A DNA stretch of 46,672 nt. It comes from a virus. The position numbers were made by a program, and so were the translations under genes. The stretch is from the IMG/VR virus record IMGVR_UViG_3300009610_000040, positions 1-46,672 of that record, one strand, 5' to 3'. Below the pieces are notes generated by a model. It was not told the DNA's origin. It searched no databases and worked only from the letters and a program-made list of their open reading frames with translations. Positions 10,229 through 28,633 of this stretch are shown in pieces. Numbering within the stretch: the first letter of the stretch is position 1; every line of letters starts with the position of its first letter.

Positions 10229-10608
10229 CAGTCGGCCCTGACGTAGATGGCCAGGTCCATGACGGTGTCGGCGGCGTTGGTGGCCGTACCCCCAACAGCG
10301 AAGCGCACGTAGGGCGCCTTGAAGTCGGGGATGGCGTCAAAGACGTTCCACCTGGACAGGTCCCCAATGTCGCCAACGGCTATGGTGAACAGAACCACCG
10401 GGAAGGACCAGTCGTCCTCCTCCTTGCCATCGGCGCTGATCTGGTAGCCCACCAGGAGCCCCGAGTTGGGTACATCCGAGCAGGTGGGCACCCGCCAAAG
10501 CAGCGATTCGACCCGCACTTCACCCGAGAGTTTGATCCCGTTGGTGTAGCTGGCCAAAAGGTTGGGGATCGCAAATCCCCTGTGCAACAGGGTGCGTAGA
10601 CTGGCCAC
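10228..10608 (-). CDS. Virion-operon protein, unknown function
   Basis: A 126-residue protein when started at GTG 10608, which has GGGGAGG five bases upstream; a GTG at 10650 would give 140 residues but its ribosome site is only two bases away. The protein is beta-rich (GIKLSGEVRVESLLWRV; WSFPVVLFTIAVGD; APYVRFAVGG; VMDLAIYVRAD) and looks like a compact jelly-roll or immunoglobulin-like fold. The end YVRFAVGGTATNAADTVMD resembles phage carbohydrate-binding or tail-accessory domains. It is directly upstream of the fibre and probably part of the same fibre module. Family not recognised. Confidence 0.7.
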   Translation of the reverse strand: MASLRTLLHRGFAIPNLLASYTNGIKLSGEVRVESLLWRVPTCSDVPNSGLLVGYQISADGKEEDDWSFPVVLFTIAVGDIGDLSRWNVFDAIPDFKAPYVRFAVGGTATNAADTVMDLAIYVRAD

Positions 10609-10893: not shown

Positions 10894-11574
10894 TTAAGAA
10901 ACAAGCATCTCCTCAGAGTCCTTGCGTTTGTTCTGGTCTTTGAATTTGAGGCGCTTCATCCGGTACTCCTGGACGCGCCTCTCGATGATCCAGGCCGGTG
11001 CCCCGCTCTTGCGGAGGTACCTGGCCATGTTCTCGATTTCGTCGTCATCCTGCTCAACTTTTGCGCGCTTGGGCAGCATGCTGATGGCCGAAGACAGCGC
11101 ATCGACAAGGTCGAACGTGGCTGACATGGGGTGGGTGGCCAGCTCCTCCTCGAGCTCGAGCTGCCCATCTTGGAGGAACAGTCGGCCCTGCGCGATCATG
11201 GGCTGCAAGGCAGCACGGTTGCGAAAGGGCTTCTCAATCTTGTTGGGCTGCAACACCTTCACCAGGGGGATGCGCACGTTCGTCAGGCGCGCTTCGCGAC
11301 GGACGCCGTCGCCAAAGAGGCTCTGCATGCCGTTGGCCTCGATGCCAAACTTGGACGGAGTGAAGGTGGAGTTGACCCAAAAGATCTTCTCGTAGAGCTT
11401 GTCCGTGCTGGTGCGGTCGGCCCAGGCGTACATGACGAAGATGCGGTCCAGCCAGTCCCTGGCCACCACGACGATGGCGCTCCGCGCTTGCTGCTTCTTG
11501 ATTTGGGACTTGCCGCCTGCGGGGTCGCAGAAGGCGGTCCAGTCAACCAGGTCCTCGACTTTGATGGGCTCCAT
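10894..11574 (-). CDS. Terminase large subunit, nuclease half (split gene)
   Basis: A 226-residue protein matching only the C-terminal RNase H-like nuclease of a large terminase, the part that cuts concatemeric DNA at packaging start and end. Acidic residues sit where expected: D17 in AFCDPAGG, E79 in FGIEANGMQSLF, and D155/D158 in ATFDLVDAL. There is no Walker motif. The ATPase half is a separate gene upstream (11,804-12,988), and a small membrane-protein gene lies between. ATG at 11574 overlaps the small gene's stop as ATGA, so this is a true independent start. The halves probably reassemble as a complex. The C-terminus is Lys/Arg-rich. Confidence 0.8.
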   Translation of the reverse strand: MEPIKVEDLVDWTAFCDPAGGKSQIKKQQARSAIVVVARDWLDRIFVMYAWADRTSTDKLYEKIFWVNSTFTPSKFGIEANGMQSLFGDGVRREARLTNVRIPLVKVLQPNKIEKPFRNRAALQPMIAQGRLFLQDGQLELEEELATHPMSATFDLVDALSSAISMLPKRAKVEQDDDEIENMARYLRKSGAPAWIIERRVQEYRMKRLKFKDQNKRKDSEEMLVS

Positions 11575-11804
11575 CAGTCTCGATTCTTGTAGCAGCAGAC
11601 CTTGAGCTCCTTCTGCATCTCCTCGATGACTTCGGCGTAGTGCTCGCGGCCCTTCTGCTCGAGCTGCACAGCCTTGACGGACTCGTTCAGCTGCGCTACC
11701 CGCCCCAGGGCAGCGGTGAACCCGACCGCCAGGAGCACATTCAGGACGTTCAGGAGGATCTTGATGACGAAACTCAAGTCCATCTTCCCGTTCGAGGGTC
11801 CCAT
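11574..11804 (-). CDS. Small membrane protein with coiled coil, inside terminase locus
   Basis: A 76-residue protein with ATGA overlaps at both ends (with the ATPase gene before and the nuclease gene after), a strong sign that it is translated. Residues about 8-34 form one membrane segment (LSFVIKILLNVLNVLLAVGF), followed by a helical, heptad-like part (AQLNESVKAVQLEQKGREHY) and a short Cys-Cys-containing tail. The layout recalls Rz-type inner-membrane spanins or small holins, but it is short for a spanin and no outer-membrane partner is obvious. Function is inferred only. Confidence 0.75.
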   Translation of the reverse strand: MGPSNGKMDLSFVIKILLNVLNVLLAVGFTAALGRVAQLNESVKAVQLEQKGREHYAEVIEEMQKELKVCCYKNRD

Positions 11805-12988
11805 CAGCCCAAACGCAGCCTCCGACCCCCCAAGTGCTCCTTTCGGGCCTTGAAAAGGTCGAAAATCTCGCCTGTCTTAACCACTTTTCCGAACTTGGGG
11901 GGCGGAATGGCGTTCACATCCGGTGAATTTGAGGCTCGCTCCTCCAAAACGGCGTCCAAAGTGTTCTCGTCGAACCTGAGCAGCCCATTTTCGATGCTGA
12001 ACCGCCTAATCAGGTTCATATCGAAGTCAGTCAGCTCCGGATCAGCCGCAGAATTCATGTAAAGCAGGGAGAACAGGGAGCCCAGCTCGTCCTTCAGCCG
12101 CTGCAAGGTGACCAAGGAGAACATTTCGGGAAAGATAGGCTCCCCGCCCTCCACTGCTTTGCGACAGATGACTTCGACAGTGGGGTCGTTGCGCTCGATG
12201 TAGGAGTACAGGTCGTGGACAGCCCAGCGGGTGCCGATGATGATCTCCAGACTCTTGTCTGGGTCGTCCATCAGGGCGCGGCTGGTCTTGTGCCACTCGA
12301 TGGCGTTGTACATGAGCGTTGGCGAGTTTGCGGCCTCCAGGGTCACCAGATCGTCCTTGAGCAGAACGTCGTAGTGGCGGCCAGTCACAGCGCCGCCCAC
12401 GCCGATGGTCTCGATGGAGGCCTCCGGGTACTCCTTGTTGCGCGGGATCATGATTTCTTCGCCGTTCCACTTCTTGGATTCGCGGCGCGCATTGTCCCAC
12501 ACGCGGTGCGGCCAAAAGGCCCGCAGCAGCTCGTTAGCCTCCAGCTGGATCATGATCCATCGGAGTTGGTGCTGCGCGTTGGTGGCAGTCTCGTTGGCGA
12601 GGAGGATGCGCGTGTTACAGCCTTCCATGCCTGGGAAGTAGGGGTTGGAGTCCGCATTCTGTAACAGGATGTGAAGCACCAGGGCTCGACACATCGAAGT
12701 CTTCAGGTGATCGCGGGGCATCAGGAGGAGCTTGCGGTACGGCGGAAACCGCGAGAGGAATCTGCACGCAGGCAGGTGCAACGATTGGGTCAGCCGGTCC
12801 AGCCCCAGAATGCCTTTACCGAAGACGAACAGGTCTGCTTCGGCTTTGGCCCGGAACTCCTCTACGAAGGAGCCGGGGATCGTGGCACCTGCCTGGCGTA
12901 CTTCTCCACCCTTTGTGATAACGAATTCGACGGGCTCAACCCGATCAGCGAAGGGGTCGCCTCCGGCGTGGGGCTCAGGGGAGCTCAT
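11804..12988 (-). CDS. Terminase large subunit, ATPase half (split gene)
   Basis: A 394-residue ATPase of the DNA-packaging motor. ATG at 12988 is chosen because GAGGAGG lies 9 bases upstream; a longer frame has no such site. Visible motifs: a Walker A-like PRDHLKTS at 91-98, Walker B YDVLLKDD at 206-213, and the coupling motif IIGTRWAVHDLY at 250-261. After SLLYMNSAADPEL (about 307-319), where a fused nuclease domain would normally begin, the protein continues for about 75 residues and stops. The nuclease is a separate downstream gene. It overlaps the small-terminase gene by 14 bases. Confidence 0.85.
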   Translation of the reverse strand: MSSPEPHAGGDPFADRVEPVEFVITKGGEVRQAGATIPGSFVEEFRAKAEADLFVFGKGILGLDRLTQSLHLPACRFLSRFPPYRKLLLMPRDHLKTSMCRALVLHILLQNADSNPYFPGMEGCNTRILLANETATNAQHQLRWIMIQLEANELLRAFWPHRVWDNARRESKKWNGEEIMIPRNKEYPEASIETIGVGGAVTGRHYDVLLKDDLVTLEAANSPTLMYNAIEWHKTSRALMDDPDKSLEIIIGTRWAVHDLYSYIERNDPTVEVICRKAVEGGEPIFPEMFSLVTLQRLKDELGSLFSLLYMNSAADPELTDFDMNLIRRFSIENGLLRFDENTLDAVLEERASNSPDVNAIPPPKFGKVVKTGEIFDLFKARKEHLGGRRLRLG

Positions 12989-13658
12989 CGGCAGCGGCCT
13001 CCTCGGCCTGCATGGCTGCCTCCACCTCAGCGAGGGGCCAGGGCTCCTCGAACGTGGTGGGTTTGAAGGGGACGGCAATCGGGGGGCCTGCTGCGACTTC
13101 GCGCAGCGCTGCCTGCATGCGGTCCAGCGAGTCGCGGTCGATCACCAGGTGGTGCGTCCGTTCCTCGTGCACCTCGCGCTTCTTGGGGATCACGCGGTCC
13201 ACGGCGTCCTCGATTTGCTTCGCAGCCATCAGGCGCACGCGGGGGTCGTCCTGGTGCGAGGCCGGGTTGTCGCGCATCTGCACCAGGAATTCGAAGTTGG
13301 GGCCAGCCTCAGCAGTAATTCTCTCGAGGAGCTGCGCGACCGTAGCGGTGCGCAGGGCTTCTCGCTCTTGGGCTAGGCGCACCTGAAAGAGGGGGGAGTT
13401 GATGATGCCGGTGATAGTTTGGGGATTGACACCGATGTCTAAGGCGATGTCTTTGGGCTTCCGCCCAAGGAGCACCTGGTAGAGGATCATCTGGTTGCGG
13501 TCGCTCCAGCGCTTGATGCGCTGGACGGTGGATGCGGGGTCGCGCTGGTGCGCGGTTTCGCCGGGGGGCCAGCCGTTGGCCGCACGGGCAGCGATGGCGT
13601 CCTCCCGCGAGGGAACACGCTCCTGCTGGGTGCGTCCGGGCCGGGTTACTCGTTCCAT
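12975..13658 (-). CDS. Terminase small subunit-like protein
   Basis: A 227-residue protein from ATG 13658; GTG at 13733 would add 25 residues, and neither start has a clear ribosome site, so the N-terminus is uncertain. A helix-turn-helix-like segment (QVLLGRKPKDIALDIGVNPQ) is followed by a long helical region (LLERITAEAGPNFEFLVQMR; KQIEDAVDRVIPKKREV) and an acidic Ala/Glu-rich tail. This architecture and its place directly before the large-terminase ATPase match small terminases, which bind the packaging start site and regulate the motor. It is the first gene of the left late operon. Confidence 0.7.
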   Translation of the reverse strand: MERVTRPGRTQQERVPSREDAIAARAANGWPPGETAHQRDPASTVQRIKRWSDRNQMILYQVLLGRKPKDIALDIGVNPQTITGIINSPLFQVRLAQEREALRTATVAQLLERITAEAGPNFEFLVQMRDNPASHQDDPRVRLMAAKQIEDAVDRVIPKKREVHEERTHHLVIDRDSLDRMQAALREVAAGPPIAVPFKPTTFEEPWPLAEVEAAMQAEEAAADELP

Positions 13659-13919: not shown

Positions 13920-13966
13920 AAAAAAAAACACGGGAGAGCCAAGGGCTTTTGCCCTTGACCCTCCCG
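13920..13966 (-). terminator. Rho-independent terminator (minus strand)
   Basis: The hairpin has an inner perfect stem CAAGGGC/GCCCTTG (13,940-13,946 with 13,951-13,957) around a 4-base loop and an outer stem CGGGAG/CTCCCG. In the minus-strand sense it is followed within two bases by a run of nine T (13,920-13,928). It begins 7 bases beyond the stop of the 99-residue gene, so it ends that transcript and insulates the late terminase operon. Confidence 0.88.
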
Positions 13967-13972
13967 TTTGTC

Positions 13973-14272
13973 TTACTTGCTGGCCTTCTCGTCGGCGTCG
14001 ATCATGGCGAGGTACTCATCCGCGTGTGTCAAGATCCAGCGCCAATTGGCCACGCTGCGGTTGATCGGCTTCATGCCCTTGCCGGTCTCAAGCAGCGTCC
14101 ATTTGCCCGCGCCCTTGACCACTTCGCCCTTGCCGTTCTTGAAGTCTTCCGACTTCTTGAACACGTAGTGTTTCTCTTTCGGCTTCGGCTTCGCTGCCTC
14201 TAGCGCTTGCGCTACTGCCGCCGCTACTGCCGCGTCCATATCCGCTTTCGTGTACCCGATCTTTGATGCCAT
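13973..14272 (-). CDS. 99-residue protein with Ala-rich helix, unknown function
   Basis: Starts at ATG 14272 with AAGGAG 8 bases upstream; an upstream in-frame extension to 14371 has no ribosome site. The protein opens MASKIGYTKADMDAAVAAAV, an Ala-rich helix followed by a Lys/Pro/Glu stretch, then a conserved-looking domain with KHYVFKKSEDFKNGKGEV and ANWRWILTHADEYLAMIDAD. It is monocistronic or the last gene of the rightward-lying minus operon, with a strong terminator directly after it. Upstream operator-like boxes suggest dedicated regulation. Family not recognised; a small DNA- or host-protein-binding factor is possible. Confidence 0.75.
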   Translation of the reverse strand: MASKIGYTKADMDAAVAAAVAQALEAAKPKPKEKHYVFKKSEDFKNGKGEVVKGAGKWTLLETGKGMKPINRSVANWRWILTHADEYLAMIDADEKASK

Positions 14273-14443
14273 CTCTGTTCTCCTTGGCTGGGTTCCGGCG
14301 TGATTGCCGAAAACATGCCGCCATTCTACCACACCAGCTCTTAGACCAACCACACCCCCTCCCTTTTGCACCCTCTCCTAGTCGCTCCTTATGTGTGTTA
14401 GATTCTCTGTGTTTCACTCTCTTGGCCTCGTTATGTCTGATCA

Positions 14444-14708: not shown

Positions 14709-16256
14709 TTAGCTACGCTTCATGCTGTAGTTTGCTGCCTTCAAGAAGGCCAGAGCCTCCACGAAGTCGTTAGCCCTGTAGATGCCGTGCTGGTCACAGA
14801 CACCATAGCAGGCCTTCCTGAGTTCCTCGTGAGAGCTCTCAGACTTGCCTGTCACCATCCCATCGCTGAGCCACACCAGCGGCTTAGACTGCTTGGCCAA
14901 CCACACCAAGCTAGGGAAGTCCACGATGTTGCCACCATGGGCATTGGGATGCTGCAAGGGAGTCTTAGAGATCTTGCCCTCCCAAGAGATAATCCGCAGC
15001 TCCCCCTCATCCCCAGAGCCAGCATAAGTAGCTATGCGAGCCATAGGCAGGTGCTGCAAGATGGTGTTGAGATCGTTCTCAGTGAGCGACATAGACCCAC
15101 TGTAGTCGATCAAGAGCGACCCTCCAGGCTTCCTACGCTTCTCAGCGAAGATCCGCCCATCGCTCATGAACCTGGCCATGTGCTTGACCAGAGCACCCTC
15201 ATCACGGGGCCTCGAACCAGCCCTAACCTGGCCACAAGAGGGATGCGGTACACCGTCCTTGAGCGGCATGATGGTCAAGTGCCCCGACATCTCAAAACCA
15301 CCGTCCATGATCTTGGTTTTGCCATGCGGCTTGCCATCGGTTTCGCTCTCAAACTCCTCTCCACCCTTGGCCCAATGGACTCTCATCTCATCTCGACGCT
15401 CCAAGAGACTCGGATCAGGTGGAGGCAGGCCCAACAAGGCCTCAGCACTGCCCCCCTTGGGCCTCGTGAGGTGGAGCAGCTCATCGGTCTTGAACACCTC
15501 ATCCATGCCCCCAAGCACCTCATGAATGCGCCTGAGAATGGCCTTGGTCCACTCGAAGTTCTCGAGCTTCTCCTTGGACTCCTTAGGCTCCTTGTCCATG
15601 TGGACAAAGCAGGCAGCCAGAATGTGCTGAATCCAGCTAGGCATCGCATTCCTCATGCTGCTCACAGGCAGCAAGGGAGTGTCGTTGTAGATTTGAGAGA
15701 CCTCCCTGTTGAGAGTAAAGCCACCAGCATGGTACCTCAGCTTGTGAGGCTGCAAGAGGAACCTAAAGAGCAGCAGCACAATGAAGTGTGCCATCCCTCT
15801 TTGAGAGTAAAGGGCATCCAGGGCAGCCGCCTTAAAGCCGTACCTGATTGCCTCATCCCTCTCAGGAGTCACCCTAGCCATCTCCCCAAAGACCAGGTCG
15901 CTCAAGAGGCCGAGCCTGAGATCCTCAGCCGCTTGAACCAGCTCCTCAGTCAGCTCGTACTGGGCAGCCAGCTCAGAGGGCTTCACGTCCCTCGGAGTGT
16001 ACTTGGAGTGCAGCATCTCGTGACACTGCCCATAGCGATCCTGCTCTGTAGCTGCTCTGACCTGCATCCTACGCTCTTGCAAGTCAGTCTTGCTCTGGCC
16101 TCCCTCCCTGACATCCCATTGCTCTCCGTCAAGGGCATTGGGGAGAGGCAGCGGCAAGTAGCCCGGCTGCCCCTCCTCCTTGACCCAAGCTGAAGTAGGC
16201 ACCTTGCGCCTAACCTGCCTCAGCATGTTCTTGGTCCTCGCCTTGCTTGTAGGCAT
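14709..16256 (-). CDS. VWA-domain protein with HExxH motif (CobT-like partner of MoxR ATPase)
   Basis: A 515-residue protein. The C-terminal third is a von Willebrand A domain with the metal-site motif LLIDYSGSMS (D384, S386, S388) and a second acidic motif VWLSDG (D465). The N-terminal region has CHEMLHSKYT with HEMLH at 79-83, a zincin-like HExxH that is also seen in phage proteins called CobT-like. The middle is helical with a hydrophobic stretch near 155-170. The ATPase gene lies immediately upstream, one base apart. Family knowledge: MoxR AAA+ proteins and VWA proteins work as pairs to remodel or load metals into targets. The target in this phage is unknown, and true cobalamin synthesis is unlikely. 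Confidence 0.8.
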   Translation of the reverse strand: MPTSKARTKNMLRQVRRKVPTSAWVKEEGQPGYLPLPLPNALDGEQWDVREGGQSKTDLQERRMQVRAATEQDRYGQCHEMLHSKYTPRDVKPSELAAQYELTEELVQAAEDLRLGLLSDLVFGEMARVTPERDEAIRYGFKAAALDALYSQRGMAHFIVLLLFRFLLQPHKLRYHAGGFTLNREVSQIYNDTPLLPVSSMRNAMPSWIQHILAACFVHMDKEPKESKEKLENFEWTKAILRRIHEVLGGMDEVFKTDELLHLTRPKGGSAEALLGLPPPDPSLLERRDEMRVHWAKGGEEFESETDGKPHGKTKIMDGGFEMSGHLTIMPLKDGVPHPSCGQVRAGSRPRDEGALVKHMARFMSDGRIFAEKRRKPGGSLLIDYSGSMSLTENDLNTILQHLPMARIATYAGSGDEGELRIISWEGKISKTPLQHPNAHGGNIVDFPSLVWLAKQSKPLVWLSDGMVTGKSESSHEELRKACYGVCDQHGIYRANDFVEALAFLKAANYSMKRS

Positions 16257-16257
16257 C

Positions 16258-17013
16258 TCACTCCTCCGAAGCCAGCCTCAGAGCGTCGAACACCGCCGCC
16301 CCGTCCGGCCCCCAAACCACCTTGCAGGCCAACTGCTCCTTGTCCTTGAGTGCTCCAGGCAGGTTCTCAACCAGGGTCACGAAGTTCTCCCAACCCCGGA
16401 AGCCCACCTGCCTCACAACGTGCTCAAAGTCCCTGGCCGAGCAGCCCTTGAACATGTTTTCAGCCACCTGCTGGTACTTCTTGGGCAGGGTCTTGAACGC
16501 CTCGGGAGCCGGAGCAGCGATGAACAACTGCGCTCCCAAGCGGCTCCTGAGAGCCTCCGGCAGGTCCTCCGGGATGCCGTTCATGGTGGCGATGACCCTG
16601 TGAGGGAACTTCACCTCCAGGTTGGGCTTCTGCATGTCGCCAGTGGGCAGAGTCACAGCCGCCTGATCCGGTGGGTCCAGCACCGCAAACAGGAAGCTCA
16701 GAGCGTCCGCAGACGCCTTGTCGATCTCGTTCAGCACCAAGAGGCCGCCCTGATCCCACCACCTCAGGCAAGGGCCGTCCAGCCAAGCGAACTCACCCGG
16801 CCCAGAGGGCACAAAGTGCCCCCTGAGCTCCGCTGCCGGGGTGTCCTCGGTCATGGTCAGGGAGAACCAGGGCTCCTCCTTGGCCAGGCTCTTGAACGCC
16901 GCCCGGCTCTTGCCGGTCCCCGGAGGGCCGTACAGCACAGCCCTCTGGATCGCCTTCAGAACGCTCAGAACCTGCGGCCATGTGACCAGCTTCGCCTTGT
17001 TGTTGTCGCTCAT
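16258..17013 (-). CDS. MoxR/CobS-type AAA+ ATPase
   Basis: About 251 residues from ATG 17013; a GTG at 17022 overlapping the previous stop (GTGA) would add three residues, but its AAGGAG site is only three bases away. Numbered from the GTG, Walker A is GPPGTGKS at 32-39, Walker B LLVLNEID at 94-101, sensor 1 in VIATMNG near 148, and an arginine-rich ALRSRL near 157-162. NEIDKAS and the short length fit MoxR-type ATPases. The VWA gene follows directly, the usual MoxR/VWA pairing. It probably hydrolyses ATP to remodel a protein target. Confidence 0.85.
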   Translation of the reverse strand: MSDNNKAKLVTWPQVLSVLKAIQRAVLYGPPGTGKSRAAFKSLAKEEPWFSLTMTEDTPAAELRGHFVPSGPGEFAWLDGPCLRWWDQGGLLVLNEIDKASADALSFLFAVLDPPDQAAVTLPTGDMQKPNLEVKFPHRVIATMNGIPEDLPEALRSRLGAQLFIAAPAPEAFKTLPKKYQQVAENMFKGCSARDFEHVVRQVGFRGWENFVTLVENLPGALKDKEQLACKVVWGPDGAAVFDALRLASEE

Positions 17014-17018
17014 AACGC

Positions 17019-17192
17019 TCACCCTCTCCTTGTGGGGCTTTTACCCACCTTTGCGCTGTATGCAGCGCCCTTCTTGTTGCGGTACTTGGATGCTTGCCGA
17101 CCAGTAGGCAGCACCCCGGCCTCTGTGCAGTGTCGCTGGAACTCCTGGTCTTGGGCAGCGAAACTGCGATTCGTGTAGACCTTGTCTGCCAT
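17019..17192 (-). CDS. 57-residue basic protein upstream of MoxR ATPase
   Basis: A short gene starting MADKVYTNRSFAAQDQEF from ATG 17192, with GAGAGGAG four bases upstream, and ending in KVGKSPTRRG. It is basic, with a Lys/Arg-rich centre (GRQASKYRNKKGAAY) and a single Cys. It fills the space between the coiled-coil gene and the ATPase gene precisely. No known family; nucleic-acid binding or adaptor roles are possible. Confidence 0.7.
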   Translation of the reverse strand: MADKVYTNRSFAAQDQEFQRHCTEAGVLPTGRQASKYRNKKGAAYSAKVGKSPTRRG

Positions 17193-17201
17193 AGCTCCTC
17201 T

Positions 17202-17666
17202 CTAGTCCTTGAGAGCCTTCCCCATGGCGGCCATGATCCTGTCGTGCTTCTTGACCAGGCTGTAGTAGCGGTCAAGCAGCTCAGCGTTGCCCTGCCTCAG
17301 GGTGCTCAGAGCAGCCGTATCCCTGGAGTGCTCCACCTTCAGGACCTCCACTTGCTGCTCCAAGAAGCCCTTTTCGTTCCTGAGCTGCTCCTCCAGGTCG
17401 CTGATCTTGTTTTCCTTGGCGCTGAGCTGCCTGTAGAGCATGTCCTTGTGCTCCACCAACGCCTTGATCTCCCGCTCCAGGCTCTCAGTGCCGCTGAGCC
17501 CCCTCACCGCAGCCAGCTCAGCCTTGACGCTGTGCAGCTCCCTATAGACCCGCTGCTCAGACTCCTTGGTGTCCTCAAGCTCCAACCAGAGCTTGGCGCT
17601 CCTAGCCTCCACCTCTTTGGCCGCCTCCACAGCGTCCAAGAGCTGCCTCTCCAGTGAAAGTCTCAT
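17202..17666 (-). CDS. Coiled-coil protein, unknown function
   Basis: A 154-residue protein that is almost entirely a predicted coiled coil, with Leu/Glu/Lys heptads (LVEHKDMLYRQLSAKENKIS; LEEQLRNEKGFLEQQVEVLK) and no membrane segment. ATG 17666 overlaps the preceding stop as ATGA. It sits in the MoxR/VWA operon next to another coiled-coil protein, so the two may form a scaffold or an adaptor for the ATPase. Function is not known. Confidence 0.75.
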   Translation of the reverse strand: MRLSLERQLLDAVEAAKEVEARSAKLWLELEDTKESEQRVYRELHSVKAELAAVRGLSGTESLEREIKALVEHKDMLYRQLSAKENKISDLEEQLRNEKGFLEQQVEVLKVEHSRDTAALSTLRQGNAELLDRYYSLVKKHDRIMAAMGKALKD

Positions 17667-18184
17667 CCCTCTTTCCTCTCTAGGCTCTCTTGAGCCTTCT
17701 CAAAGGCCTCAACCATGGCCTTGTAACCGTCCCGCTCCGCCTTGAGATCCCCAATGTGATCCAGGATCACATCCATCTCGCTTGGAGCCATGAACTCCGC
17801 CATAGTCTGCCCCTTAGGCAGACAGGCCAGGAGGATCTCCACGAGCAGCTTGCGCTGAGAAGCCACAATGTCCGCATGGAACTTGTTTGCGGCCTTGTGC
17901 TTCTCAAGAGCATCGCCCTCCAAGGCCTTGTTGATGCTCCTCACCTGCTCAATCTCGACCTCCATGGCCTTGTTGGCATCCAGCAGCTCCTCCACAGCCT
18001 GGCTCACTGTGCTCAGGTACGTCTCGCCCTCATCGGGGTCAGGAGCATTCCCCAACCCCGGATAGAGCATCTCGTAGAGCTTGTAGAGCCCCTGCAAGTA
18101 GTAGGTCAGGATGCGGCAGAGCCCCTCGACCTCTGCAACCAACTGCTTCTTGGTCCTCTTGGCCTCTTTGATCCCTTTAGCCAT
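17663..18184 (-). CDS. Helical protein in MoxR/VWA operon, unknown function
   Basis: A 173-residue protein starting at ATG 18184, which overlaps the preceding stop as ATGA (a GTG one codon earlier is less likely). It is helical, with a Tyr/Leu-rich part (CRILTYYLQGLYKLYEMLYP), an acidic loop and long charged helices. No family recognised. Tight overlaps with both neighbours show that it is co-translated in the operon. Confidence 0.75.
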   Translation of the reverse strand: MAKGIKEAKRTKKQLVAEVEGLCRILTYYLQGLYKLYEMLYPGLGNAPDPDEGETYLSTVSQAVEELLDANKAMEVEIEQVRSINKALEGDALEKHKAANKFHADIVASQRKLLVEILLACLPKGQTMAEFMAPSEMDVILDHIGDLKAERDGYKAMVEAFEKAQESLERKEG

Positions 18185-18474
18185 CACTCTTTGACCTCCT
18201 TGGCCTTCTCAAGCTCCTCAATCACATGCTCTCCAGCCCACTTGAACACCTCTCGCATGCTCTTGAAGCGGTAAACGCCGAAGCGGCTCATGTCGCTCAT
18301 CCACGACACTCCGGTCGTCATGAACAGCACAGCCACCACCACCGACCACACCAAGCTCTCCTTGGTGATCCAGAAGCACAGCACTAGAGCACCAAGCATG
18401 TATGAGTCGTTGATTACGCTCTCCCACCAACGCTCTCTGAGCACCACTACCGTCCTCTTGCTACCCTCTGCCAT
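18184..18474 (-). CDS. Two-helix membrane protein
   Basis: A 96-residue protein with two likely membrane segments, YMLGALVLCFWITKESLVW (residues about 25-43) and VVVAVLFMTTGVSWM (about 45-59), between charged ends. The C-terminus is amphipathic and Lys/Glu-rich (FKWAGEHVIEELEKAKEVKE). ATGA overlaps link it to both neighbours. It could anchor the coiled-coil and ATPase proteins of this operon to the inner membrane, but that is inference from context. Confidence 0.75.
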   Translation of the reverse strand: MAEGSKRTVVVLRERWWESVINDSYMLGALVLCFWITKESLVWSVVVAVLFMTTGVSWMSDMSRFGVYRFKSMREVFKWAGEHVIEELEKAKEVKE

Positions 18475-19013
18475 CAGTGCCTCGTCTCGCTCTCAGGGTC
18501 CACCATGACGGGACCCATCGCCATCTTGAGCACCATGCCCAAGTTCTTGTGCAGCTCGCTCACCTTGGCCACAAACTGCGCCTTGCTGCCCACGTCGTCG
18601 ATGGACTCCATAGCCAGGCTCAGGAGCACGTCCATGCACAGGCTCTCAGGAGTCCAGTTCTTGGTCTTGTCGATGGCGTTGACCGCTTGAGCCGCCTCCT
18701 GCATCAGCGACCCCAAAGCGTCCCTGAGGTCCTTGGGGTGCGCCAAAGAGGGCTCCAAGAACACCGACCCCAAGATCCGGGTGTTCCTGGTGCCGTCCTC
18801 GTCCACCTTGGGCGTCTCCACACTGCACACCTCCAGGTAGAGACCGCCCTTAGGCTTAAAGCCCTCAGCGGCGCACCTCGGCATGAAGCCCCCCAAGTTG
18901 TCCTTCTGGGCCTCAAAGTGCTCTCTGACCTTGGTCATATCCACGTCATCCTGACCATCAGCCTCGATCATGATGCCCTCTCCACCACTGCTCTTGAACT
19001 TTGTGTGCTTCAT
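18474..19013 (-). CDS. First gene of MoxR/VWA operon, unknown function
   Basis: A 179-residue protein with ATG 19013 preceded by AGGAGAGAGG. The N-terminus is acidic and polar (EGIMIEADGQDDVDMTKVRE), followed by a beta-like segment (GGLYLEVCSVETPKVDEDGT; GSVFLEPSLAHPKDLRDAL) and C-terminal helices (MLKxx-style; KMAMGPVMVDPESETRH). No membrane segment. As first gene of the minus-strand operon it may be made earliest and most. Family unknown. Confidence 0.75.
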   Translation of the reverse strand: MKHTKFKSSGGEGIMIEADGQDDVDMTKVREHFEAQKDNLGGFMPRCAAEGFKPKGGLYLEVCSVETPKVDEDGTRNTRILGSVFLEPSLAHPKDLRDALGSLMQEAAQAVNAIDKTKNWTPESLCMDVLLSLAMESIDDVGSKAQFVAKVSELHKNLGMVLKMAMGPVMVDPESETRH

Positions 19014-19163
19014 AACCTCTCTCCTGTGTTGGTTAAAGGTGAATTGCTATAACCCCTATATACTAAAGCAGCATAGCTACCATGTTGGATCGCCGCTGCC
19101 TCGGAAACTGCCGAATCCTACCATTCTCCTCTTAAGCAACCACCCCTCTTATAGGATATGAGG

Positions 19164-19198
19164 CTTATCCCGATATAGGCGCACATAGTCTTATCCCG
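19164..19198. repeat. Two direct repeats CTTATCCCG
   Basis: The 9-base sequence CTTATCCCG occurs at 19,164-19,172 and 19,190-19,198, 26 bases apart. TTATCC is the start of the DnaA-box consensus TTATCCACA, but the last three bases do not match, so these are DnaA-box-like at best. Confidence 0.45.
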
Positions 19199-19232
19199 CG
19201 CAGTCCTTCTAATTACACGGGCGCGGCTGCAC

Positions 19233-19304
19233 ATACGCACCCCCACCCTAATACGCTCCGCTAATACGCCTCGGCTCATACGCACCGTTGCTAAACAAAT
19301 ACGC
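19233..19304. repeat. Iteron-like array of five ATACGC hexamers
   Basis: ATACGC starts at 19,233, 19,251, 19,264, 19,278 and 19,299, all in the same orientation (GCGTAT on the other strand, mostly followed by KAG or TTG). Spacing is 13-21 bases. Five copies in 72 bases is far more than expected by chance, and this is the pattern of binding-site arrays for a replication initiator or a regulator. Confidence 0.55.
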
Positions 19305-19308
19305 ATCC

Positions 19309-19334
19309 GGGGGGTGGGGAGGAGGGGGGTGGGG
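19309..19334 (+). other. G-quadruplex motif
   Basis: The plus strand has G6-T-G4-AGGA-G6-T-G4, four long G runs with very short loops, which satisfies the standard quadruplex motif strongly. It lies 8 bases before the first arm of the nested inverted repeat. It might block polymerases, mark a primer site or fold the control region. Confidence 0.6.
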
Positions 19335-19341
19335 ACCCCGC

Positions 19342-19629
19342 CAGGAAGAATCAGGAAGAATCAGGAAAGATTTTTTCGCCTAACTCCAGGCGCCACAACG
19401 AAAAACCAATTTTTCTGATTTTTCTGCCAGCTATAGCCCAACCGGCCCCTCACACGCGAAAGAGCCCCCTACAGTATAGCATATATATATATCAATAAAT
19501 GATATACTAAATTAATAGGAATCGTGTACGAGGGGGCGGGACCCACCAGAAAAATCAGAAAAATCACTTTTTGAGGCCCGCATTGAACTTACGCGAAAAA
19601 TTCTTCCGAATTCTTCCTGATTCTTCCTG
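19342..19629. repeat. Nested inverted repeat around an AT-rich core
   Basis: Outer arms: CAGGAAGAATCAGGAAGAAT at 19,342-19,361 is a perfect 20-base inverted copy of 19,610-19,629, each continuing imperfectly into TTTTTCGC on the inner side. Inner arms: ATTTTTCTG twice at 19,409-19,426 is a perfect 18-base inverted copy of 19,547-19,564. Both pairs share a midpoint near 19,486. Within each arm the units are tandem repeats of 10 or 9 bases. The core (about 19,471-19,520) is almost only A and T, with AGTATA/TATACT. The symmetry suggests bidirectional origin firing or symmetric control of both divergent operons. Confidence 0.8.
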
Positions 19630-19653
19630 CCCAAAATATTTTCAATTGATAGC

Positions 19654-19682
19654 TTGACAGGCATTTCGAGGTTTGCTATCGT
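19654..19682 (+). promoter_or_regulatory. Sigma70-type promoter for the plus-strand early operon
   Basis: TTGACA (perfect, 19,654-19,659), 17-base spacer, TATCGT (19,677-19,682, 4/6). Predicted start near 19,689, about 22 bases before ATG 19711, which has AAGGAG upstream. It is just outside the right arm of the nested inverted repeat. A host RNA polymerase promoter fits the absence of a phage RNA polymerase gene in the window. Confidence 0.75.
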
Positions 19683-19710
19683 CCCCGGCAACCCACAGGA
19701 AGGAGTACAG

Positions 19711-19947
19711 ATGCAAAAATCCGCTCCAGAAGTCATCGACGAGATCGGGACCATCGGTCTAAAGTTGACTCAAGAAACCTCCGTGGACCGGCTCTTGGTC
19801 CTCGGGATTTCCAAAGAAGGGCTCAGCATCAGCTCAAACATCTGCTGCAACCGCCACCTACGCCTAGCCCTCCTAACCTCAGCCCTCATGATCGAGGACA
19901 ACGACGAGCCCATCTCAAAGCACCTCGTAGACCTCACCGAACACTAG
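19711..19947 (+). CDS. Early protein, paralogue A of a small family
   Basis: A 78-residue protein; ATG 19711 has CACAGGAAGGAG upstream and follows the promoter closely, so it is the first protein made from this operon. A core beta-strand-like motif VDRLLVLGISKEGLSISSN is followed by a helix with RLALLTSALMI. The same pattern (V-hydrophobic-IG(L/I)-x-x-(E/D)G...SN plus helix) occurs in the next gene and, more weakly, in 23,244-23,480, so these look like duplicated genes. Possible host take-over factor; function unknown. Confidence 0.75.
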   Translation: MQKSAPEVIDEIGTIGLKLTQETSVDRLLVLGISKEGLSISSNICCNRHLRLALLTSALMIEDNDEPISKHLVDLTEH

Positions 19948-19955
19948 GAGGCCCC

Positions 19956-20198
19956 GTGAAACCAGACAGCCCAGACGGCAAGCGTTTTCAAGAGATCCTC
20001 ACAGTCGTAGCGCGCATGATGGAGGGCACGGGCCTCTATGGCTTCGTGATCATTGGTCTGACCGAAGATGGCCAAGTGGTAGCCAGCAACGCCAACTGCC
20101 AACACGCTGTAGCTGAGACCCTCGCAGACGCCCTGCGCGTGGCCCTAGACAAGGACAGCCACGAAACTGTGATCGAGATCGACCGCAGCACACACTAG
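19956..20198 (+). CDS. Early protein, paralogue B of a small family
   Basis: An 80-residue protein from GTG 19956 with AGGAGG close upstream. Its core GFVIIGLTEDGQVVASNANC matches the preceding gene's core position by position, followed by a helix (AVAETLADALRVAL) and an acidic end. The two genes lie eight bases apart and are probably a tandem duplication. No known family; likely a small soluble early protein. Confidence 0.75.
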   Translation: MKPDSPDGKRFQEILTVVARMMEGTGLYGFVIIGLTEDGQVVASNANCQHAVAETLADALRVALDKDSHETVIEIDRSTH

Positions 20199-20221
20199 CC
20201 CAGCCAACCACAGGAGGAGGA

Positions 20222-20473
20222 ATGGCCCACTTCTACGGAACAGTGAAAGGATCTGGGGGCACAGCCAGTCGCTGTGGCTCCAAGGCCTCAAGCCTAATCA
20301 GCATGACAGCCAGCTACGAGGGTGCCGTCAAAGTGATCTTGCACTACGACCCAGCCACCAACCAAGACTTCGCCCACGTCGAGCTTGTGCCGTGGCTGGG
20401 CTCCGGCGTCAACAAAGTCCTCTATAGTGGCCCCGTGGGTGGGCCTACGGACCGGAAGGACGCCGCCTCATGA
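20222..20473 (+). CDS. Conserved small phage protein, unknown function
   Basis: An 83-residue protein starting MAHFYGTVKGSGGTASRCG at ATG 20222, with CACAGGAGGAGG upstream. It has a beta-rich middle (GAVKVILHYDP; FAHVELVPWLGSGVNKVLYS). I recall proteins of this shape (MAHFYGxVxGxRGxxTRxGxK...) as widespread, uncharacterised phage early proteins. Its stop overlaps the next start as ATGA. Confidence 0.8.
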   Translation: MAHFYGTVKGSGGTASRCGSKASSLISMTASYEGAVKVILHYDPATNQDFAHVELVPWLGSGVNKVLYSGPVGGPTDRKDAAS

Positions 20474-20640
20474 CCCTGGACCCTTTTGAGAAAGGACCCT
20501 GCTCACAATGTGGAGAGCCCACCTGCGAGGACTGTGGTGGCTGCCCAGTCTGCGAAGCCTGTCCAGACTGCGGAGCCTGTCACGGCTGCACATGCAGCGG
20601 CTCCGACCCCTTTGACTGGCCTGGAGACTCAGCCCTATGA
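20470..20640 (+). CDS. Cysteine-every-third-residue mini-protein
   Basis: A 56-residue protein (MTLDPFEKGPCSQCGEPTCE and onward) that contains 11 Cys. Between residues 19 and 40 there is a Cys at every third position (19, 22, 25, 28, 31, 34, 37, 40) plus C42, giving a run of overlapping CxxC motifs with Gly, Pro, Asp, Glu between. The ends are acidic and aromatic (SDPFDWPGDSAL). It probably binds metal, like a zinc ribbon or metallothionein, or an iron-sulfur cluster. It is linked to both neighbours by ATGA overlaps, which supports translation. Confidence 0.7.
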   Translation: MTLDPFEKGPCSQCGEPTCEDCGGCPVCEACPDCGACHGCTCSGSDPFDWPGDSAL

Positions 20641-20792
20641 CCACAACACCCGAAGAAGACATTAACCGCCTCAAGCACAACGTAGCAATGGCCAAGCGCA
20701 ACCTCCTGCACGCCAGAATCAACTCTGGAGTGTCTATCGTCCTGGCTATCTGGTTCCTCACCCTCTTACTGGCCAAAGGATGCGAAGCATGA
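20637..20792 (+). CDS. 51-residue membrane protein
   Basis: ATG 20637 overlaps the previous stop as ATGA. The N-terminal half is a basic, amphipathic helix (INRLKHNVAMAKRNLLHARI) and the C-terminal half a single membrane helix (VSIVLAIWFLTLLLAKGC). The stop overlaps the next start. A small inner-membrane protein of unknown role. Confidence 0.65.
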   Translation: MTTTPEEDINRLKHNVAMAKRNLLHARINSGVSIVLAIWFLTLLLAKGCEA

Positions 20793-21289
20793 CCTACCGC
20801 TCACCCGAACCCGAAGAACTCCACTGGGAGCTCATCCCCTGGGCCGGGCTCAGGCGCCTTGCCAGGCGCTACGCCAAGGGCTCCAAGATGCGCGCCGACC
20901 GGGGCGAGGACGCCCGCGAGTGGGAGAAGGGCCTGGCCTGGGACTCCACCTTCCGTCACATCATGTGGCACCTCTGGCGCTACAACGCCATCAAGCAGGG
21001 CTGGCTCGAGGACGACGGCGACGACCACCTGGCAGCCGCAGCCTGGGGCTGCTTCGCTGAAATGCACTTCGAAGGGGTGGCCCCAACCCCGCCCAGCCCC
21101 ACCCCACCCCAAGAAGAACAGCTCTCCTTCAACTTCCGCGCAGACAAGCCCATCGAGGAGCAGATCGGAGAGGAGATCCGCCGCCCCACCTTCAGACATG
21201 GGGGGCTCACAATGCGTGACATTACTGAAGCCCTAGACCGCTTCGAAGAAGCCTCAAAAGGAAACCCAGCCAAACGGAGGAAGCCATGA
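20789..21289 (+). CDS. dATP/dGTP diphosphohydrolase-like (DUF5664-type) protein
   Basis: A 166-residue protein from ATG 20789 (an in-frame ATG at 20780 is possible; the chosen one has the ATGA overlap). The N-terminal part has the pattern ELIPWAGLRRLARRYAKGSK...W-E-K-G-L..., a RHIMWHLWRYNAIKQG segment and HLAAAAWGCFAEMHFE, which resembles phage proteins annotated as dATP/dGTP diphosphohydrolase. Members act on deoxynucleotide pools, but only one of them is well characterised and the assignment here is from pattern recall. The C-terminal part after a Pro-rich linker has no clear domain. Confidence 0.65.
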   Translation: MTYRSPEPEELHWELIPWAGLRRLARRYAKGSKMRADRGEDAREWEKGLAWDSTFRHIMWHLWRYNAIKQGWLEDDGDDHLAAAAWGCFAEMHFEGVAPTPPSPTPPQEEQLSFNFRADKPIEEQIGEEIRRPTFRHGGLTMRDITEALDRFEEASKGNPAKRRKP

Positions 21290-21498
21290 CCACCTTCTGG
21301 ATTCTGATTGTTGTAGCCCAGGTGTCCTACGGAATCTCTGTGACGCCCATCGAGTTTGTAGACAAGGCTGCCTGCCAAGAGGCAGCAGCAAAAGTCATCC
21401 CACTGGTTGGTAAATCCTTCGGCAAGGTGGATGCCCTCTGTGTCCGCAAACGCACTGCTGAGAGGTTCCGCTTTGGCACCACCGAGGAGGTAGAATGA
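21286..21498 (+). CDS. Small exported or membrane protein
   Basis: A 70-residue protein with an N-terminal hydrophobic segment, MTTFWILIVVAQVSYGISVT, that could be a signal peptide or membrane anchor, followed by a soluble domain with two Cys (AACQEAAAKV; VDALCVRKRT), which may form a disulfide outside the cytoplasm. Similar short proteins occur in other phage early regions. ATGA overlaps at both ends. Confidence 0.7.
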   Translation: MTTFWILIVVAQVSYGISVTPIEFVDKAACQEAAAKVIPLVGKSFGKVDALCVRKRTAERFRFGTTEEVE

Positions 21499-21785
21499 CC
21501 ATCGAAATCTGGAAATACACACTCGCTGTGAAGCATTCGCAGGTGGTCGAGATGCCCAAGCACGCCAAGCTCTTGACTGTCCAGGTGAACTTGGGGGAGC
21601 CTTGCGTTTGGGCAGCCGTCAACACCCAGGAGACCTATGAGAAGCGGGTTCTCATCACCTACGGGACCGGCCATCCGGTCCAAGAGATCACCCTCTTTCC
21701 TTTCTTGGGGACCTATCAGCTTGAACAGGCAGACCTGCCCTTTCCGCTGGTGTTCCACGTCTTCGACGGCGGAGTAGCCGCATGA
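21495..21785 (+). CDS. DUF7352-like small phage protein
   Basis: A 96-residue protein starting MTIEIWKYTLAVKHSQVVEM. The pattern IWKY.L....-Q-V-xMP, LTVQVNLGEPCVWAAV, a GTGHP motif (ITYGTGHPVQ) and a final LVFHVFD fits a widespread phage family (DUF7352) with no known function. ATGA overlaps link it to its neighbours. The match is from memory of the pattern and is strong. Confidence 0.8.
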   Translation: MTIEIWKYTLAVKHSQVVEMPKHAKLLTVQVNLGEPCVWAAVNTQETYEKRVLITYGTGHPVQEITLFPFLGTYQLEQADLPFPLVFHVFDGGVAA

Positions 21786-21976
21786 CCGAAGCCGAGAAGC
21801 TAGAGATCAAGCTCCAGGCCACCACCAACGTGCTGGGCAAGGCCACTTCCATCCTGGCTGAGTTCCTGGACCTGTGGGACCTGTATCGCAGCGAGCCAGA
21901 CGAGGGCCGCAAGGCAGAGCTACGCGGCAGGATAGACAACCTGGTGGATGGTGCCCGCATGGGGAGGCCCTCATGA
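21782..21976 (+). CDS. 64-residue helical protein, unknown function
   Basis: A small, acidic, helix-forming protein (MTEAEKLEIKLQATTNVLGK; AEFLDLWDLYRSEPDEGRKA) with ATGA overlap at both ends. No family recognised and no membrane segment or metal site is visible. Confidence 0.65.
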   Translation: MTEAEKLEIKLQATTNVLGKATSILAEFLDLWDLYRSEPDEGRKAELRGRIDNLVDGARMGRPS

Positions 21977-22293
21977 CCGAAGACAGAGCCGAAGGCAGGC
22001 GCCTCAAAGAAGCTGGCATTGCCCTAGCCTCTGGCAACAGGCGATCCCTCCTGGAGTTCGCACAGGCCATAGCGGTGGAGCTGGCTGCGCGCCGCCCTGA
22101 CAGGCGGGTCACAGCCGACGACGTACAACTCAAGCTCGAACAGCTTGGCGTTCCTGCTGGAGCCCTGGGCAACGCCGCAGGCGGGCTGTTTCGCAGCAAG
22201 GCCTGGGAGTTCACAGGCCAATTCACAGAGAGCCGCAGGCCCCGAAGGCACTGCAACCTACTGAGAGTGTGGCAACTGAAGGGGGGAGCATGA
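21973..22293 (+). CDS. Conserved phage protein with winged-helix character
   Basis: A 106-residue protein from ATG 21973 (the frame is open further upstream but this start overlaps the previous stop as ATGA). Pattern: EGRRLKEAGIALASGNRRSL, AIAVELAARRPDRRVTADDV, an LGNAAGGLFRSKAWEFTGQF segment and a terminal RVWQLK. Proteins of this form are common in phage early regions; the 'RS/GKxWExTGxx' and final VWxL are typical. The order of helices and strands suggests a winged-helix DNA-binding fold, which is inference. Confidence 0.75.
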   Translation: MTEDRAEGRRLKEAGIALASGNRRSLLEFAQAIAVELAARRPDRRVTADDVQLKLEQLGVPAGALGNAAGGLFRSKAWEFTGQFTESRRPRRHCNLLRVWQLKGGA

Positions 22294-22541
22294 TCCCTTG
22301 CATGGAATGCGCTGTCACCAAAGCGAAGCTCAAGGAAGCCCTGGAGATCATTAGGCGGCAGGACGCTAGCCTAGAGGCTGGGGCCACAGCCATGGCCAAA
22401 GCTGGGAAGATCTTGGACATCAGCGCTGACCGCCTGATGAACCTGGGCCTAGCCTACGAAGCTGTCAAGGCTGAGCTCGAGGACACCAAAAAGAAGCTGG
22501 CCGACGCGGCGGGAGGTGCGGATGCTCCGCGTGCACGTTGA
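22290..22541 (+). CDS. 83-residue helical protein with N-terminal CxxC
   Basis: From ATG 22290, overlapping the previous stop as ATGA. It begins MIPCMECAVTKAKLKEALEI, a CxxC followed by long helices rich in Ala, Leu and Lys, and ends in a coiled-coil-like segment (KAELEDTKKKLADAAGG). It overlaps the next gene by 20 bases. Family unknown. Confidence 0.65.
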   Translation: MIPCMECAVTKAKLKEALEIIRRQDASLEAGATAMAKAGKILDISADRLMNLGLAYEAVKAELEDTKKKLADAAGGADAPRAR

Positions 22542-22761
22542 ACTGGACAAGTACGGGCGTGGCGACGACGTGTCGGTTCTGCACACCGTCTGCATTGCCA
22601 ACGTTGGCGGCGATGATGAGGTCGGCTTTTACGATGTATGGCTGGAGGATCGTCCTCATCATCGCCGCACCACGCGGCACACGCGCAGCGATGGCCCACT
22701 CGTGCTGGCGATGAAGGCTATCAAGGAAGTGCGCCAATTCGGCGCCAGAGGTGCGGTATGA
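22522..22761 (+). CDS. Small acidic/basic protein, unknown function
   Basis: A 79-residue protein from ATG 22522, with GGGAGG 5 bases upstream; GTG at 22516 would add two residues. The N-terminus is a likely beta strand (MLRVHVELDKYGRGDD; VSVLHTVCIANVGGDDEVGF), followed by a His/Arg-rich loop and a helix (VLAMKAIKEVRQFG). It may bind metal or nucleic acid. Not recognised. Confidence 0.6.
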   Translation: MLRVHVELDKYGRGDDVSVLHTVCIANVGGDDEVGFYDVWLEDRPHHRRTTRHTRSDGPLVLAMKAIKEVRQFGARGAV

Positions 22762-22826
22762 GCGCAGGTGAGATTGCCGCTGAGATAGCCGCCCTGCGCA
22801 CCCGCGCCACCAAGGAGACCACATGA
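22758..22826 (+). CDS. 22-residue micro-ORF
   Basis: MSAGEIAAEIAALRTRATKE plus TT. It starts inside the previous stop (ATGA) and ends in an ATGA that begins the next gene, so it could exist only for translational coupling or be a real micropeptide. There is no strong ribosome site of its own. It is included because it accounts for the otherwise empty interval. Confidence 0.4.
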   Translation: MSAGEIAAEIAALRTRATKETT

Positions 22827-23041
22827 AGCTCTACCGCAACGCCTACAGGACTGAAGCCGAAGGCAGCAAGGGCTTTGAGTGGTTCAGCTCCCTTGCAGAA
22901 GCACGGAGTGCCTGGCGCTCCATGGTGGAGTGTGGGAACCACGAAGGCCCCATGGTCTTCACTGTGCACTACGTGCAACCCAACAAGAGTAGCCTACGGA
23001 AGTTCCTCAACGACTTCGCAGGCTACCCTGACAACGGATAG
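22823..23041 (+). CDS. 72-residue soluble protein, unknown function
   Basis: Starts MKLYRNAYRTEAEGSKGFEW with an AAGGAG site and the ATGA overlap. A central helix (LAEARSAWRSMVECG) and a C-terminal strand-helix (MVFTVHYVQPNKSSLRKFLN) suggest a small alpha/beta fold. No membrane segment. Family not recognised. Confidence 0.7.
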   Translation: MKLYRNAYRTEAEGSKGFEWFSSLAEARSAWRSMVECGNHEGPMVFTVHYVQPNKSSLRKFLNDFAGYPDNG

Positions 23042-23049
23042 GAGGAGCT

Positions 23050-23247
23050 ATGTCTCTATTGTCACTGATTGTGGCACTTGTGGTGGTCGGCGTCATCATG
23101 TGGGCCATCAACGCCTACATTCCGATGGAGGCCCGCATCAAGAACATCCTCAACATCGTGGTGATCATCGTCGTCGTCTTCTGGCTGCTCAAGGTCTTCG
23201 GCGTCATCGGGCGCATGGACACCATCACCGTGGGTTTACTTTCATGA
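23050..23247 (+). CDS. Thivi_2564-like membrane protein
   Basis: A 65-residue protein with two membrane segments (LIVALVVVGVIMWAINAYIP and NILNIVVIIVVVFWLLKVFG) joined by a short loop containing MEARIK. This pattern is widespread in bacteria and phages as the Thivi_2564 family of membrane proteins; its function is unknown. GGAGG precedes ATG 23050. It may modify the host inner membrane early in infection. Confidence 0.8.
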   Translation: MSLLSLIVALVVVGVIMWAINAYIPMEARIKNILNIVVIIVVVFWLLKVFGVIGRMDTITVGLLS

Positions 23248-23480
23248 CCAACAAAGTTTCAAGGCTCAAGCCTGGCTGCATCTCCGCAAGGACCCTGCTT
23301 GGGCAGCGCCTCGGAGACATCAAGGACACCGACACAGTGCTGATTGTGGTGCGAAGCGAAGACGGCAACTACGAAATGTACAGCTCAGACGGGATGAGCA
23401 CAGACCAAGTGTGCGCTGCCTCCCTCTATGTACAAGGGTTTGCAATCAAAGCCAGCCACGGCCAAGTTCACGAAGAATAA
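23244..23480 (+). CDS. Possible third member of the small early-protein family
   Basis: A 78-residue protein from ATG 23244 (ATGA overlap). The core DTVLIVVRSEDGNYEMYSSD followed by a helix (VCAASLYVQGFAI) has the same strand-EDG-turn-strand-SS/SN-helix order as the genes at 19,711 and 19,956. The N-terminus (VSRLKPGCISARTLLGQR) differs. Relationship is suggested, not proven. Function unknown. Confidence 0.65.
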   Translation: MTNKVSRLKPGCISARTLLGQRLGDIKDTDTVLIVVRSEDGNYEMYSSDGMSTDQVCAASLYVQGFAIKASHGQVHEE

Positions 23481-23499
23481 CCAGCCTTTAGGAGGGCTC

Positions 23500-23766
23500 A
23501 TGGATCTACGAATCAGAAAGGAATACGACCGGACTTTGTGCAAAAAGAATTGCTCAAAGGCCAACCCCCTCGGAGTGTGCCACTGCAAAGGCTGCTCCGG
23601 GGAGAAGCACGGCTCAGGCCGAGTCACGCCCGAGCACCTCTTTACGCTCGCAGACAAGAAGCTGCACGACCCCAAGATCACCGATCAGGACGAGGAGTTC
23701 TGGCTAGGTGTGATGAGCCTCACCATCAAGCACCACAACCGCAAGAAGCTGCGGAGAGCTGCATGA
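23500..23766 (+). CDS. Cys-cluster protein, unknown function
   Basis: An 88-residue protein from ATG 23500, with AGGAGGG close upstream; the open frame begins earlier without a ribosome site. It has C-x3-C and C-x-C-x2-C (CKKNCSKANPLGVCHCKGCS), which could bind zinc, followed by a basic helical tail (LTIKHHNRKKLRRAA). A small metal-binding, perhaps nucleic-acid-binding, early protein. Confidence 0.65.
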   Translation: MDLRIRKEYDRTLCKKNCSKANPLGVCHCKGCSGEKHGSGRVTPEHLFTLADKKLHDPKITDQDEEFWLGVMSLTIKHHNRKKLRRAA

Positions 23767-23897
23767 GCAGACCCAAATCACACAAGTCCAAGAAGCAGGT
23801 GGGGCTCCTCCTTTCGGAGGGGTCCCCCCTCACCAGGGAGCAGAAAGCCAAACTCAAGCGCGAGCTACACTCAGGAGCAGTGAAGGTCAAGAAATGA
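23763..23897 (+). CDS. 44-residue basic protein
   Basis: MSRPKSHKSKKQVGLLLSEG and onward, rich in Lys and Ser, from ATG 23763 with an ATGA overlap at the start. The end overlaps the next start as ATGA. Strongly basic and probably unstructured; a nucleic-acid-binding or small regulatory role is possible. Confidence 0.6.
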   Translation: MSRPKSHKSKKQVGLLLSEGSPLTREQKAKLKRELHSGAVKVKK

Positions 23898-24732: not shown

Positions 24733-24743
24733 AGGGAGGAGCC

Positions 24744-25028: not shown

Positions 25029-25047
25029 CCCAACCAAGGGAGGAGCC

Positions 25048-25260: not shown

Positions 25261-25262
25261 AG

Positions 25263-25529: not shown

Positions 25530-25591
25530 CCAAGTCCGCGTCTGCGGACATGGCACTAAAACAAACAGCACGCCAGCCACAGGAGTCTCAA

Positions 25592-26584: not shown

Positions 26585-26622
26585 CAGGGCCACAGGCCCC
26601 CTAACCCAGCAAGGAGAACAAG

Positions 26623-27015: not shown

Positions 27016-27036
27016 CTGAGCGCAGCTCAGTCTAGT
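27011..27036 (+). other. Hairpin over the stop codon of the preceding gene
   Basis: ACTAGCTGAGC pairs with GCTCAG-t-CTAGT (11 bp with one bulged base and a GCA loop). The stop TAG at 27,013-27,015 lies within the left arm. No T-run follows. It may be an RNA stability or processing element before the ATPase gene. Confidence 0.5.
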
Positions 27037-28630: not shown

Positions 28631-28633
28631 ACA

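Follow-up and report, generated by a model that had tools for sequence, protein, structure and literature searches.

A divergent MoxR-type ATPase and VWA protein pair in environmental phages, with a zincin-like site that is not retained by all members

Several pairs of a MoxR-type AAA+ ATPase and a VWA-domain protein have been described. Group 2.2 jumbo phages encode a MoxR ATPase together with a VWA protein bearing an N-terminal metallopeptidase domain (ASV44729/ASV44728), and a role in virion assembly has been proposed for them (PMC7824862). In N4-like phages, the closely spaced ATPase and VWA genes gp24 and gp25 belong to the core gene set and give rise to middle transcripts (PMC4193335). 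In the NorQD system, a finger of the VWA partner reaches into the pore of the ATPase, and the VWA partner binds through its C-terminus (PMC13036017); a MoxR and vWA core is shared by the bacterial ternary conflict systems with VMAP and iSTAND (PMC7159879). For the tailed-phage pairs, which are also present in hundreds of phage sequences from the environment, we found no tested function in the literature consulted, and the published proposals (virion assembly, cobalamin synthesis, stress) disagree; a CRISPR interference study of phage genes mentions neither N4 nor MoxR. Here we analyze such a pair in IMG/VR virus record IMGVR_UViG_3300009610_000040, a 46,672-b sequence without terminal repeats that is referred to below, at its full length, as the window. 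Its ATPase and VWA genes belong to a conserved unit in which the VWA protein carries a candidate metallopeptidase site.

The ATPase matches Pfam AAA_5 (E 1.6e-15), and an alignment of relatives showed the Walker A and Walker B motifs, the sensor-1 Asn and the Arg finger all to be intact, in agreement with the initial annotation, which had called it a MoxR protein from the sequence alone. Its best matches among proteins of solved structure are the AAA module of midasin (E 2e-21), followed by NorQ (1.8e-6) and CbbQ-type proteins. The partner was less accessible to profile methods. Neither it nor 39 relatives gave a convincing Pfam match; Pfam, NCBIfam, PADLOC and solved-structure sequence searches yielded nothing useful for the window protein, and tblastn against 50,697 phage records returned no match even at E 10, a relative being likewise tried as query. 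The VWA domain postulated earlier is nevertheless clear from phrog_33218, a family of unknown function matched by 40 of 40 tested VWA-family members, from the DYSGSM metal-ion-dependent adhesion site (MIDAS), and from the predicted fold. An AlphaFold2 model of the protein has a predicted local distance difference test score (pLDDT) of 73 as a whole, with most of the VWA core above 90, and its best fold match is the NorD VWA domain in the NorQ complex (9qh6_G; Z 10.5, root-mean-square deviation 3.5, 154 residues), with other VWA folds matching at Z 8.7 and below. Matches in a viral structure library include phage proteins annotated as VWFA or CobT (E 1e-12 to 1e-4). Foldseek found no match in the PDB at E 0.001 or better for this model or for that of the N-terminal domain, which does not in itself point to a new fold.

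Searches with exact peptide patterns found no close relatives of the pair; it was alignments that gave access to its family. The ATPase led to at least 212 IMG/VR loci, of which 80 were analyzed, with genes called by codon-usage scoring in view of long antisense open reading frames (ORFs). A complete VWA gene lies downstream of the ATPase gene in 76 of these 80 loci (in the others the sequence runs out or is incomplete at that point), and the two genes are separated by 60 nt or less in 67 of 77 pairs, the window included. The reciprocal search, by VWA gene, found a MoxR gene immediately before the VWA gene in 60 of the 62 loci that could be evaluated; at locus L148, recovered in that search, the ATPase lies 447 bp from the VWA gene. 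The two genes therefore form a conserved unit in which pairing is near-obligatory. The initial annotation had treated them as part of a functional set of seven genes, and this is not supported, because the neighbors of the pair in relatives are unrelated and the five small genes that precede it in the window have no detectable relative: blastp and phmmer found none for the 179-, 96-, 174-, 154- and 57-amino-acid (aa) proteins in the analyzed loci, a back-translated search found none for the first three, and tblastn gave no match in phages for the 179-aa protein. These five appear to be phage-specific companions, which may or may not bear on the pair.

A profile scan of genome contigs with a narrower alignment returned three loci. 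A homologous MoxR/VWA pair (with HELGH and EDAR motifs) was observed at 6902-10483 of a 307-kb contig (L162) of a Verrucomicrobia metagenome-assembled genome, near a WGR-domain DNA ligase protein, and is likely a chromosomal relative tied to DNA repair.

The N-terminal region of the VWA protein contains HEMLH at residues 79-83, noted at the outset as a possible zincin motif. In the predicted structure, HExxH lies in a helix (residues 71-86, block pLDDT about 80-93) behind three strands, and E111, a candidate third ligand, lies in a second helix (104-123). When the domain was predicted alone (pLDDT 78), the same three strands, HExxH helix and glutamate helix followed one another, the order expected for a zincin, with a best gluzincin match of only Z 3.5. 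Conservation of these residues was scored in 57 non-redundant relatives. HExxH, E111 and an acidic residue at 112 occur together in 44 of them, and HExxH is gone in the remaining 13; both acids are present in 44/44 relatives with an intact motif and in 0/13 without it (Fisher p 4e-13, kinship ignored). The glutamate sits 24-32 residues past H79, most commonly 28. The HExxH-to-ED stretch also aligns with VWA proteins of cultured phages (hhalign E 4.5e-6). Because the acidic pair is co-conserved and the two-helix arrangement is predicted, these data support the assignment of HExxH to a metallopeptidase-like domain.

The MIDAS residues D384, S386 and S388 are invariant in all 57 relatives. On a tree built from VWA columns only, with zincin columns excluded, the state of the metal site changes about 7 times, and the independent pairs on the tree are all concordant but too few for a test. 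We read the metal site, from these alignments, as genuine but dispensable on an obligatory ATPase/VWA core. Since the site is repeatedly lost while MIDAS is invariant, remodeling would be the basic activity, to which cleavage is added in some members. Nature thus supplies versions with an active site and versions in which it has degenerated, and these offer a direct route to separating the two activities. Both states can be found side by side: a 115-kb phage contig (L114, 232-4376) carries tandem VWA paralogues, one of which has HExxH while the other lacks it, and a DNA primase gene comes next.

Compared with the described systems, the architecture is a known one. The jumbo-phage arrangement has been reported and related pairs have been proposed to be CobST, so the pair is best filed under a known type, as a divergent member whose family falls outside Pfam coverage. 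It differs from the jumbo-phage system, whose proteins were compared by description, in its compact 254-aa ATPase, in its occurrence in a 46.7-kb record with podovirus-type genes and in the repeated loss of the zinc site across its family. N4 gp25 carries HELWH and a MIDAS-like DTSGSI, but is composed of DUF2201_N and DUF2201 by Pfam (E 3e-87 and 1e-46), and neither model matches any of 40 members of the window family. NorQ/NorD, like CbbQ/CbbO, has a MoxR-type ATPase, and the NorQ-bound NorD VWA domain is the nearest fold; the NorD target is nitric oxide reductase, and no peptidase domain is described for NorD in the parts of the NorQD account used here. AAA-ATPase/VWA pairs are found as well in Gordonia, Brevibacterium and DSL-LC01 phages. 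Their VWA proteins are larger, of low sequence similarity and gave no full-length alignment, although a profile match covers the motif; Gray gp73 and the DSL-LC01 protein have HExxH, followed at about 31-32 residues by an acidic pair, as well as MIDAS. The bacterial ternary systems share the MoxR and vWA core, while their peptidases are mostly of other classes and reside in other proteins. What the present analysis adds is how widely such pairs are spread among environmental phages, the finding that the metal-site residues are lost together while MIDAS never varies, and evidence from gene placement.

The same AAA+/VWA gene pair has been proposed, for archaeal tailed viruses and cyanophages, to encode CobS/CobT-like subunits of a cobaltochelatase that would work with a CobN of the host (PMC8651126), and one related phage gene is annotated as cobalamin biosynthesis and one BFVD match as CobT. 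We consider this function very unlikely here: the CobT Pfam models match 0 of 40 family members, CobT being, like DUF2201, among the families that the initial annotation had suggested testing; the N-terminal domain retains its HExxH/E site; and no CobN was found among the window ORFs scanned.

Our preferred reading, held with roughly even confidence, is that the pair is an ATP-driven MoxR/VWA remodeler that acts in early or middle infection and clips its target where the zinc site survives. The ATPase would be expected to assemble as a hexamer on which the VWA protein docks via its C-terminal VWA domain, as NorD does on NorQ, leaving the N-terminal region to carry the target-recognition and effector part. 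ATP hydrolysis would twist or pull this adaptor, and the bound protein complex would be remodeled. In members with an intact site, that of the window included, the zincin-like domain probably binds metal via H79, H83 and E111, and probably clips the target or the adaptor. Placement favors, with modest confidence, a replication, recombination or host complex as the target. A bolder version, in which the pair is a widespread ATP-gated unfold-and-clip machine of early infection that acts on replication, recombination or host complexes, has repeatedly lost the peptidase module from an obligatory AAA+/VWA core and is here tied to a membrane and coiled-coil platform, seems to us doubtful.

The evidence from placement comes from relatives. 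An exonuclease gene (phrog_284) and a Rad52-like gene lie within six genes downstream of the pair in 50 of 55 loci, a block typical of the largest, mostly marine-looking group of relatives, and the large terminase (TerL) is on the strand opposite the pair in all 53 relatives with a TerL of the same family. This placement suggests early or middle action on a replication, recombination or host complex, and not on the virion. It bears directly on the proposal that MoxR/VWA is an assembly or maturation chaperone-protease that helps build the head or tail while the zincin domain processes structural proteins. Acidianus two-tailed virus served as the analogy when that role was put forward for jumbo-phage pairs of this architecture (PMC7824862), and a second structural module lies close to gp24/gp25 in N4-like roseophages (PMC4193335). 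The N4 homologues, however, are middle and not late transcripts (PMC4193335), the neighbors of the pair in relatives are recombination and replication genes, and in the window the operon and the terminase genes have a strong terminator between them. We therefore take virion assembly to be unlikely, if the least so of the alternatives, and placement argues against it for the group to which the window pair belongs.

Several observations weigh against our preferred reading, some of them in favor of a virion role. The window operon lies on the terminase strand with the terminase genes downstream, and at loci L014 and L095 TerL likewise comes after the VWA gene in the same orientation; gene context is therefore not uniform. 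Most of the 53 opposite-strand cases come from one related marine group, and these cases are thus not independent. Only 2 of the zinc-site changes are forced by well-supported branches. The best structure match of the N-terminal domain (Z 5.2) is to unrelated helical regulators, ahead of selecase (Z 3.5), which we take to be a gluzincin. Finally, the membrane and coiled-coil neighbors in the window, together with an SPFH/Band_7 (prohibitin-like) gene directly upstream of MoxR at locus L010 (8772-9737; Pfam E 2.7e-21), could point to a membrane target instead.

This last observation also favors an effector complex directed at the host or at a rival phage, which would take apart or cut its target and be anchored by the membrane and coiled-coil proteins. 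The companion genes are orphan and phage-specific, and MoxR-vWA modules stand at the center of conflict systems in bacteria (PMC7159879). Against this, no PADLOC family was matched beyond coiled-coil noise, no operon protein matched VMAP and no third component was found, so that the operon is without a VMAP-type partner, and no toxin or antitoxin signature was detected; we regard such an effector as improbable. Of the three roles first offered for the locus, remodeling of a viral or host complex remains the best, virion maturation is weakened by placement in relatives, and a conflict system has gained no positive evidence.

Features of the window around the ATPase/VWA pair
Feature	Coordinates	Strand	Remarks
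179-aa protein, first gene of operon	18474..19013	-	no relatives found
96-aa probable membrane protein	18184..18474	-	no relatives found
174-aa probable coiled-coil protein	17663..18187	-	crude measure; no relatives found
154-aa probable coiled-coil protein	17202..17666	-	crude measure; no relatives found
57-aa basic protein, net charge +8	17019..17192	-	no relatives found
MoxR-type AAA+ ATPase, 254 aa (AAA_5)	16258..17022	-	GTG start at 17022 or ATG at codon 4
Walker A GPPGTGKS of ATPase, residues 32-39	16906..16929	-	residues 32-38 invariant in ten relatives
VWA protein, N-terminal zincin-like domain, 515 aa, phrog_33218 family	14709..16256	-	
HEMLH motif, residues 79-83 of VWA protein	16008..16022	-	
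E111-D112, candidate third metal ligand and acidic neighbor	15921..15926	-	
MIDAS DYSGSM, residues 384-389 of VWA protein	15090..15107	-	
132-aa gene, likely last of the operon's transcription unit	13973..14371	-	follows 337-nt gap
Strong intrinsic terminator, 17-bp stem and T run	13930..13967	-	between operon and terminase genes
Divergent intergenic region, operon vs rightward replication genes	19014..19653	.	direct repeats 19342-19367, 19248-19287

The window encodes a portal, a large terminase, an internal virion protein, DNA polymerase A, a primase and a Sak4-like protein, and its first 25 kb gave no megablast match in the 50,697 phage records. Seven co-oriented, tightly coupled minus-strand ORFs occupy 14709-19013, with gaps of -1, -4, -4, +9, -4 and +1 nt in order and Shine-Dalgarno-like sequences before most starts. 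Because of these short or overlapping gaps and Shine-Dalgarno-like sequences, a single co-translated operon, as initially described, is well supported. The reported membrane, two coiled-coil and 57-residue basic proteins also held up, by crude measures: a hydrophobic stretch in the 96-aa protein (Kyte-Doolittle mean 1.9 over 19 aa), a coiled-coil look and the net charge. PADLOC matches of the 154-aa protein (PbeC, JetC, LmuB) were discarded as long coiled coils. The replication genes (19654-32363) are transcribed in the opposite direction, as had been noted. The transcription unit starts at the 640-bp divergent region and most likely ends at the terminator, whose minimum free energy is -36.0, compared with -15.5 +/- 2.9 for shuffled sequences; it is the position of this terminator that makes the 132-aa gene a probable member of the unit.

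Short direct repeats of the CAGGAAGAAT type are present in the divergent region (19248-19640), possibly as operators or an origin. On the plus strand beyond it, 20780-21289 encodes a dATP/dGTP diphosphohydrolase N-terminal domain (PF18909, E 1.1e-8), presumably linked to MazZ of 2-aminoadenine phages, and 23894-24472 a 192-aa protein with a C-terminal Xre-like helix-turn-helix, a candidate regulator. On the minus strand, the large terminase is split within 10894-13078 into parts of 424 aa (phrog_38 profile 270-524) and 226 aa (profile 547-722), compared with a median length of 636 aa for family members in relatives. Between the halves lies a 76-aa membrane- or coiled-coil-like ORF (11574-11804) with a one-base start/stop overlap with each.

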